Shown here in pieces: positions 7,827 through 61,574 of a stretch of DNA of 64,000 nt (positions are counted from its first letter, which is position 1; each line of letters starts with the position of its first letter). A program made the position numbers and the translations under genes. The notes below the pieces were generated by a model. It was not told the DNA's origin, did not search any database, and saw only the letters and a list, made by a program, of their open reading frames with translations. This DNA is from Bacteroidota bacterium (GTDB taxonomy: Bacteria > Bacteroidota > Ignavibacteria > UBA10030 > UBA8401), in contig JAJYOK010000018.1 of assembly GCA_021796215.1 (NCBI GenBank), positions 1 through 64,000 on the forward strand, read 5' to 3'.

Positions 7827-7904
7827 TGCTGACAACCTCCTTCCAGATAATGAATGAAAATTTGAGTTTCTCAGCCTCAGGCTGATCCGCCTTTGGCGGA
7901 GTTG

Positions 7905-20938: not shown

Positions 20939-21179
20939 GTATTTCTTACCTCTTTTAAAGATTTAACTGTGCCACGAGACTTTTATTTAATGTAGGTGCA
21001 GTATTAATAAGATAGTGTGACTTCCATCAACAAAAGGGTGAGATAAAAATTTTTAATGCTAAGCTGAACTGCTTACTATATATATCTTTACAGTTGAGCT
21101 TCTACGCAGAAAAATTTTTACTTAAATCGAGGATATTAACAAACAATTAACTAAAGAGGTAAAATACATCCCATGTTTT

Positions 21180-21230
21180 GTCGGGGCGGGGAGATTCGAA
21201 CTCCCGACCATGGCGCCAAGAGGCGCCACA
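21180..21230 (-). pseudogene. 3' half of tRNA-Pro (direct-repeat copy)
   Basis: The minus strand carries an intact tRNA-Pro 3' end: T arm GGGAGTTCGAATCTCCC and acceptor CGCCCCGA. The 30 bp at 21180-21209 repeat exactly at 21485-21514, the 3' end of the complete tRNA-Pro. The 5' half is missing; instead of an anticodon arm there is the palindrome TGGCGCC-TCTT-GGCGCCA. The sequence upstream of that is the end of the GIY-YIG gene. This is the far boundary of an apparent insertion into the tRNA locus. Confidence 0.85.
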
Positions 21231-21232
21231 GT

Positions 21233-21484
21233 CTAATCAGCCTGAGCTTCTGTAACCGCTTCTAAATATCTTGCTGCTCCCCTTGCTTTAATTTTCTGCT
21301 CTTCTCTCATTGCATCAGCCCGTGTGGGAAATTCATTTTTGAAGACTAATTCCCACGGCATGCCGGCTCGCGTTGCTTTTGATTCACCTGAATTGTGTTC
21401 CCGCAATCTGTTTTTCAGATCACCGGAATGACCGATATAAAAACGAGAGGTTTTTAAACTTAGAAGAATATAAGTGTAATACAT
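21233..21484 (-). CDS. GIY-YIG nuclease domain protein inserted in a tRNA locus
   Basis: An 83-residue single-domain GIY-YIG endonuclease (URI/UPF0213 type). The motif YTYILLSLKTSRFYIGHSGD carries the paired tyrosines, then RLREHN (catalytic Arg region) and MREEQKIKARG (catalytic Glu). The ATG at 21484 begins two bases past the end of the tRNA-Pro gene, and the TAG at 21233 falls just before a second copy of the tRNA 3' half, so the ORF is flanked by 30-bp direct repeats. Such proteins are usually followed by little else; no transposase or integrase is nearby. It may be the enzyme that moves the unit, or a passenger. Confidence 0.85.
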   Translation of the reverse strand: MYYTYILLSLKTSRFYIGHSGDLKNRLREHNSGESKATRAGMPWELVFKNEFPTRADAMREEQKIKARGAARYLEAVTEAQAD

Positions 21485-21485
21485 G

Positions 21486-21560
21486 TCGGGGCGGGGAGAT
21501 TCGAACTCCCGACCTCTTGGTCCCGAACCAAGCGCTCTAACCGGGCTGAGCCACGCCCCG
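21486..21560 (-). tRNA. tRNA-Pro(CGG)
   Basis: A complete cloverleaf on the minus strand: acceptor CGGGGCG/CGCCCCG with discriminator A, D arm GCTC...GAGC, anticodon arm CTTGG-TTCGGGA-CCAAG with anticodon CGG, and T arm GGGAG-TTCGAAT-CTCCC. CCA is not encoded. Its 3' 30 bp are duplicated 305 bp downstream past the GIY-YIG gene; its 5' half and leader are duplicated upstream in two tRNA-like units. Confidence 0.96.
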
Positions 21561-21782
21561 AATAAACTATCAAACCTAATTTGTCACTGTCAAAGAGCAT
21601 TGAGCGTGACTTCGAACCCGTAACCTTGGCGCCACAAGCGCCACGCTCTAACCGGGCTGAGCCACGCCCCGAATAAACTATCAAACTTAATTTGCCACTA
21701 TCAAAGAACATTGAGCGTGACTTCGAACCCGTAACCTTGGCGCCACAAGCGCCACGCTCTAACCGGGCTGAGCCACGCCCCG
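21561..21782 (-). repeat. Two tandem 111-bp units, each a tRNA-Pro-like pseudo-copy plus spacer
   Basis: Units 21561-21671 and 21672-21782 are identical except for four substitutions, all inside the spacer of about 40 bp; the tRNA-like part is unchanged. Each begins (minus strand) with the exact first 28 bases or so of tRNA-Pro, has an intact D arm, then an anticodon arm TGGCG-CTTGTGG-CGCCA in place of the Pro arm, and a 3' half that no longer pairs with the acceptor or forms a T stem. The spacer TTTGATAGTTTATT precedes the true tRNA-Pro as well, so the period of 111 bp includes it. Confidence 0.88.
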
Positions 21783-21801
21783 AAACAGAATTATTTTTCA
21801 G

Positions 21802-21874
<73 letters not shown>

Positions 21875-61492: not shown

Positions 61493-61574
61493 GAATGTTT
61501 TTATCGGGAATCTAACTGCAGGAAACGACTCAAATAATGGATTCCTGCCTACCGCAGGCAGGCGCGGGAATGAC
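61493..61574. repeat. REP-like dispersed palindromic repeat
   Basis: GTCATTCCCGAATGTTTTTA followed by TCGGGAATC, then ATGGATTCCTGCC and GCGCGGGAATGAC. Same cores as at 2751-2790 and 29169-29212. It fills most of the 200-bp gap between the patatin and the aldolase genes. Confidence 0.6.

Follow-up and report, generated by a model that had tools for sequence, protein, structure and literature searches.

Free-standing GIY-YIG endonucleases that act on tRNA genes have been described in T-even phages, where SegB cuts within tRNA genes at the motif RAWTSGAAC. SegB also drives a recombination-dependent tandem amplification of the tRNA together with segB, in which the 5' end of the tRNA and the 3' end of segB are joined at a microhomology (PMC13096335). 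A related logic is known from the mORFs of fungal mitochondria, one of which is a GIY-YIG enzyme. In mORFs an endonuclease ORF sits at a host gene, a duplicated end restores that gene, and its native end comes to lie on the far side of the ORF (PMC3630166).

The locus analysed here lies in a 64,000-nucleotide stretch of DNA (the window) from a 3.37-Mb Bacteroidota draft genome (G000), of which MAG DBS2-5.bin30 is a congener. It resembles SegB in its GIY-YIG fold, in the placing of a free-standing ORF beside a tRNA gene, in the overlap of the ORF end with tRNA sequence and in the formation of arrays. As for SegB, the ORF lies outside any intron or intein and beside its candidate target, and empty alleles are found in close relatives. 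The SegB motif also fits the T-loop strand GATTCGAAC. Unlike SegB, these units reside in cellular chromosomes, encode a single domain of 80-100 aa, form one lineage per tRNA type and are accompanied by broken tRNAs that bear palindromes. Kinship with the SegB family beyond the GIY-YIG domain was not found in searches of phage records and PHROG, and the protein has no C-terminal domain; this comparison was made through those searches and domain content.

The architecture of the units matches that of mORFs, in that the host gene would be restored and a displaced end lies beyond the ORF, although here the two copies are near-identical and either could be the one borne by the element. They differ from mORFs in their hosts, which are bacterial tRNA genes rather than organelle protein genes, and in their hairpin inserts and tandem arrays. 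Dispersed, GC-rich hairpins of short and set length, single or double, are known as the double-hairpin elements (DHEs) of organelles and the repeats of Neisseria; the palindromes seen here, by contrast, are concentrated in pseudo-tRNA loops next to a nuclease ORF. A search of literature outside the subscription journals gave no description of chromosomal GIY-YIG units associated with tRNAs. Each ingredient has precedent, the combination in cellular bacterial chromosomes was not found described, and it is a real possibility that the units form a class of their own. Based on comparative sequence analysis, we consider it probable (roughly two chances in three) that the unit represents a minimal GIY-YIG mobile element, free-standing and resident at tRNA genes, which would spread and amplify by cut-and-repair.

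The tRNA-Pro(CGG) unit and its nuclease

On the minus strand the site reads, from 5' to 3', tRNA-Ala(GGC), two pseudo-copies of tRNA-Pro, the intact tRNA-Pro(CGG), the GIY-YIG ORF and a displaced pseudo-tRNA-Pro (Table 1). The original prediction had placed exact 30-bp repeats of the tRNA 3' end on either side of an 83-residue GIY-YIG ORF at a tRNA-Pro gene, with no integrase. All of this was borne out: the exact direct repeat is 31 nt long (21179-21209 and 21484-21514, spacing 305), and no integrase is present among the ORFs listed for 18-25 kb of the window. Its account of the site was correct in coordinates and incomplete in content, since the copy continues past the repeat to about 21247 as a longer pseudo-tRNA bearing a palindrome, and the two pseudo-copies upstream of the gene had been missed.

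Table 1. Features of the tRNA-Pro(CGG) site, in window coordinates.
Feature	Position	Strand	Remarks
Intact tRNA-Pro(CGG), host gene	21485..21560	-	ARAGORN; Rfam RF00005 67.4 bits
GIY-YIG nuclease ORF, 83 aa	21233..21484	-	ATG adjoins tRNA 3' end; Pfam GIY-YIG 2.9e-15
Displaced pseudo-tRNA-Pro, tRNA positions 10-76	21180..21247	-	Last 30-31 nt equal intact tRNA 3' end
Palindrome TGGCGCC-AAGA-GGCGCCA of downstream pseudo-tRNA, in place of anticodon arm	21211..21228	.	Perfect
Upstream pseudo-tRNA-Pro copy 1, 111-bp tandem unit	21601..21669	-	Palindrome 21627-21643
Upstream pseudo-tRNA-Pro copy 2, 111-bp tandem unit	21712..21780	-	Palindrome 21738-21754
tRNA-Ala(GGC), neighbour, outside the unit	21801..21874	-	8 bp from tRNA-Pro in congener without unit

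The displaced copy and the nuclease gene are interlocked: the pseudo-tRNA overlaps the end of the ORF by 15 nt, and the TAG that stops the ORF matches the D-loop GGTTAG of that copy. The upstream pseudo-copies derive from the 5' part of tRNA-Pro, each carrying the palindrome TGGCGC-N5-GCGCCA and each scoring 24.1 bits, which is under the tRNA cut-off. In all three copies a palindrome of the form TGGCGC(C)...(G)GCGCCA substitutes for the anticodon arm. ORFs at four other loci (L087, L104, L107 and L111) also run into tRNA sequence, with C-termini such as RGVAQPG (tRNA-Pro) and AELADALDSKSS (tRNA-Leu).

The 83-aa ORF belongs to the GIY-YIG nuclease superfamily, as is evident from its domain and its conserved catalytic residues: among 31 relatives Y5, Y16, G18 and R26 are invariant and E62 nearly so. 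An AlphaFold model of the protein (mean pLDDT 94.8) gave UPF0213 BH0048, Slx1 and I-TevI catalytic domains as the best folds in Foldseek, and in contrast to I-TevI there is no separate DNA-binding domain. The closest solved structures, both by sequence (1e-7) and by fold, are those of the UPF0213/URI proteins (PDB 1zg2 and 1ywl), which are deposited under no other name than hypothetical UPF0213 protein. To our knowledge, no tRNA-gene duplication has been reported for UPF0213/URI proteins. Sequence comparison indicates that the ORF is under purifying selection, with a dN/dS of 0.13 between the window ORF and its orthologue in the congener G001, and of 0.07-0.28 over seven ORF pairs.

Recurrence, empty sites and arrays

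Twelve GIY-YIG matches were obtained in G000. With UvrC excluded, and the Ser(CGA) unit that is split between two contigs counted once, these correspond to ten distinct single-domain loci, seven of which abut tRNA genes for four amino acids: Pro(CGG), Pro(GGG), Asn, Ser(GGA), Ser(TGA), Leu(CAA) and Ser(CGA). As the stretches within 300 bp of any of the 46 tRNA genes add up to only about 0.9% of the genome, placement of the GIY-YIG loci at tRNAs exceeds what chance would give. Recurrence at other tRNAs was one of two tests that the original prediction had set for itself, and the arrangement was found at many different tRNAs; a chance repeat could be rejected on the same ground. The ORF is broken in the Ser(TGA) unit and has an in-frame TGA in the Ser(CGA) unit. 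All seven units carry a partial copy of their own adjacent tRNA, with palindrome inserts in the copies, and two layouts occur, tRNA-ORF-pseudo-tRNA (3' type) and pseudo-tRNA-ORF-tRNA (5' type).

Solo pseudo-copies with no ORF lie beside seven more tRNA genes of G000, most of them with a palindrome: Thr-CGT (L137), Val-GAC (L144), Asp (L148), Pro-TGG (L150), Ala-CGC (L151), Val-CAC (L154) and Gly-CCC (L141). From their sequence, these may be decayed or non-autonomous units. A segment of about 127 bp from the Ser(CGA) GIY-YIG ORF is common to the end of contig C36 and the start of contig C17, and the two contigs therefore probably adjoin, the assembly having broken at the unit. The three GIY-YIG ORFs of G000 that lie away from tRNAs (L001, L002 and L006) represent other subfamilies, of the types FVYILASKRNGTLYIG.. 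and ..SRRLPVKLVFAEEF..ERQIKGW, the first of which also has dispersed repeats in its flanks.

Comparison with two congeners, G001 and G002, showed the matching loci to be occupied or empty in a patchwork, so that the empty sites looked for in close relatives do exist. When the flanks of a unit were joined, they were 85% identical to the empty allele in G001 for the Asn unit (351 bp), 90% to that in G002 for the Pro-GGG unit (375 bp) and 77% to that in G001 for the Leu unit (309 bp). Conversely, the Ser-GGA unit of G001, which is of 5' type (339 bp), has joined flanks 87% identical to the empty allele in G000. At tRNA-Pro(CGG), G001 carries two tandem ORFs with a palindrome-bearing pseudo-tRNA between them. 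G002 has no unit there, and 13 nt of the ORF start persist after the tRNA, which marks this site as a loss rather than one that was never occupied.

Longer arrays were found in other genomes. In G151, a single 3.67-Mb contig, three 317-bp units with a 300-nt repeat core of 100% identity stand at tRNA-Pro(CGG); each consists of a pseudo-tRNA, with TCCCGACAGGTCGGGA for its anticodon arm, and an ORF, and one intact tRNA ends the array. G074 carries eight GIY-YIG units of about 364 bp (L228:600-3500). The G074 array adjoins what seems to be a tRNA (anticodon CAT) reduced to its 3' half, which gives the impression that an island has split the gene.

The ORF tree is built on few columns and its deep forks are unsure, so that label counts are its usable result. 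tRNA-associated ORFs cluster on it, with 12 changes against 36.8 after shuffling. Over 40 family rows, the tRNA-type label requires 14 changes for 12 states (minimum 11, shuffled 29.5) and the amino-acid label 8 (minimum 6), while the genome label requires 29 against 31 when shuffled. These counts tie the ORF lineages to tRNA type and not to the host genome. Flanking genes reveal family-wide synteny at the Pro(GGG) and Ala(GGC) sites, which could reflect either vertical descent with possible loss or homing to the same site. Related ORFs of one clade at Pro(CGG) and Ser tRNAs are found in non-syntenic neighbourhoods.

Proposed cut-and-repair, palindromes and competing explanations

In the cut-and-repair model, the nuclease would cut a cognate, unoccupied tRNA gene, and the break would be mended by recombination from an occupied copy, with the tRNA halves (the intact tRNA on one side, the pseudo-tRNA on the other) serving as homology arms. 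Such repair would insert the ORF, regenerate one functional tRNA and leave pseudo-tRNAs behind, and arrays could grow by repeated cutting or repair, or by unequal recombination. Least certain is the part played by the palindromes, which may either label the target within the pseudo-copy or abolish it, such that the copy would be neither cut nor used as a tRNA. One point against a mobile element is that the tRNA of the occupied allele stays intact and should be cut anew by a nuclease whose specificity is for the tRNA alone. The synteny at Pro(GGG) and Ala(GGC), the units of the family with no detectable tRNA copy, the lack of a separate DNA-binding domain such as that of I-TevI and the negative searches for a viral or plasmid carrier also weigh on that side. 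The minimal tRNA-targeted homing unit originally proposed is supported in its direction by the recurrence and the empty sites; homing in the strict sense, with cleavage of an empty allele followed by copying, is a putative step. The picture also needs amending, in that the copy is a palindrome-interrupted pseudo-tRNA, which can be placed on either side (3' or 5') of the intact gene, and in that tandem amplification is possible.

A stem of at least 7 bp is present in 17 of 44 pseudo-copies; the corresponding share of background windows is 0.9%, and all 42 intact tRNAs lack such a stem. Inserts of at least 8 nt fall in the D-loop (23), the anticodon arm (19), the T-loop (13) and elsewhere (23), have recurrent lengths of 20, 22, 28 and 30 nt, and are often double hairpins. 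We considered whether palindromes always interrupt the T-loop cut motif, and rejected this because the T-loop is intact in the 3' copy of the window and inserts occur in D- and anticodon loops as well. Dispersed GC-rich palindromes of 15-20 nt, of the TCAGCCTTTGGCTGA and CCTGCC..GGCAGG types, also lie in the window at 165-181, 7871-7885 and 61544-61562, and genome-wide. Counted by pattern across G000, TCCGCC-N-GGCGGA occurs 45 times versus 2 for the reversed pattern, and a 7-bp-arm version of the window palindrome occurs 6 times versus 0 for its reversal, and three of these six are at most 70 bp from a tRNA gene or a copy of one. In the genomes compared, similar palindromes are likewise dispersed in greater numbers than reversed controls, and this excess correlates with the number of GIY-YIG ORFs (rho 0.57, p 0.005), a relation that is indicative only, as it was taken over 22 related genomes.

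These palindromes suggest a different element, in which the GIY-YIG protein is a nuclease of single strands or hairpins and the dispersed palindromes are its real substrates. tRNA genes would then be struck because their single strands fold into hairpins, and the tRNA copies would be by-products. Ssn proteins, a family of GIY-YIG single-strand nucleases in Neisseria with a repeat target, offer a parallel, and the fold is like that of Slx1, which acts on branched DNA. The set palindrome sizes in the D-, anticodon and T-loops of pseudo-tRNAs, the genome-wide excess of TCCGCC-N-GGCGGA and the way this excess tracks GIY-YIG number are all in keeping with such a role. However, the ORF clades follow tRNA type and palindrome sequences vary inside a clade, the dispersed palindromes far outnumber the ORFs, and shared ancestry among the genomes makes the correlation weak evidence. 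We regard a palindrome-directed nuclease as unlikely. An ordinary resident gene, co-transcribed with tRNAs and passed on vertically beside tRNA fragments left by slippage or recombination, seems less probable again. It would agree with the purifying selection, with the constant orientation of the ORF on the tRNA strand and with the synteny at Pro(GGG) and Ala(GGC). Its difficulty is that almost every site shows presence and absence inside one genus, that the genome label does no better than random on the ORF tree, that one ORF clade occupies non-syntenic tRNAs, and that the copies come from the adjacent tRNA and carry palindromes.

The exact direct repeat of the tRNA 3' end does resemble attL and attR, as would be left by an integrase-driven island that had decayed to one ORF. 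We rejected this explanation as having very little chance of being correct, because no integrase is present among the ORFs listed around the unit (18-25 kb), the unit keeps a constant, tiny size of about 305-375 bp at unrelated tRNAs, and 5'-type units duplicate the tRNA 5' end, unlike att sites. Tandem arrays of the ORF also speak against it.

Distribution and implications

The 22 genomes of the family hold 103 GIY-YIG places, of which 42 are no more than about 420 bp away from a tRNA; all 42 are on the tRNA strand. A profile made from 31 tRNA-associated ORFs matched in 90 of 148 Bacteroidota genomes, with up to 21 matches per genome. Of 42 distinct loci sampled over the phylum, 37 have a tRNA no further than 330 bp away, every one on the same strand as the tRNA, a fraction that applies to the subfamily represented by this profile. 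The other five comprise three loci where the contig ends, the array next to a tRNA 3' half and a locus at RNase P RNA. A scan with a single protein placed ORFs beside tRNAs in Neomarinimicrobiota, Lentisphaerota, Verrucomicrobiota and several CPR lineages, with partial tRNA copies in several; the reach into CPR rests on the 23 matches of this limited sample. For some units of the family (for example L061 and L050) a tRNA copy was not detectable. No viral or plasmid carrier of the protein was found: there was no match among 50,697 phage records at E 1e-5, and PHROG homing-endonuclease matches were weak.

Beyond the mobility of the single unit, we propose tentatively, and at somewhat less than even odds, that these loci make up an undescribed and widespread class of mobile element that consists solely of a single-domain GIY-YIG nuclease, a host pseudo-tRNA and a loop palindrome. 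Such a class would comprise per-tRNA lineages with nuclease-driven spread, would build arrays at essential structured-RNA genes (mostly those of tRNAs, with one example in the P3 loop of RNase P RNA) and would use the palindromes as marks of immunity or target. If so, few of the autonomous mobile units known would be as small as its members (about 305-375 bp), which would be settled at essential genes without disabling them. They would be spread in Bacteroidota and, by the limited sample, in CPR, Verrucomicrobiota, Lentisphaerota and Neomarinimicrobiota. The class would account for many small GIY-YIG ORFs near tRNAs, for tRNA fragments and some false tRNA calls, and for part of the load of short palindromes in these genomes. 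It would also provide a testable cellular counterpart to phage SegB.

Two loci in this wider set deserve separate mention. In a Verrucomicrobia MAG (L182:1720-1812), ARAGORN labels a hairpin-bearing pseudo-tRNA-Pro as a 93-nt tRNA-Ala(AGC), and GIY-YIG units can thus create false tRNA annotations. In G086 (L247:805-1115), RNase P RNA is interrupted by a relative of the ORF between perfect 24-nt inverted arms (809-832 and 1089-1112), the insert standing directly before the conserved GAGGAAAGTCCGG, apparently in the P3 loop.
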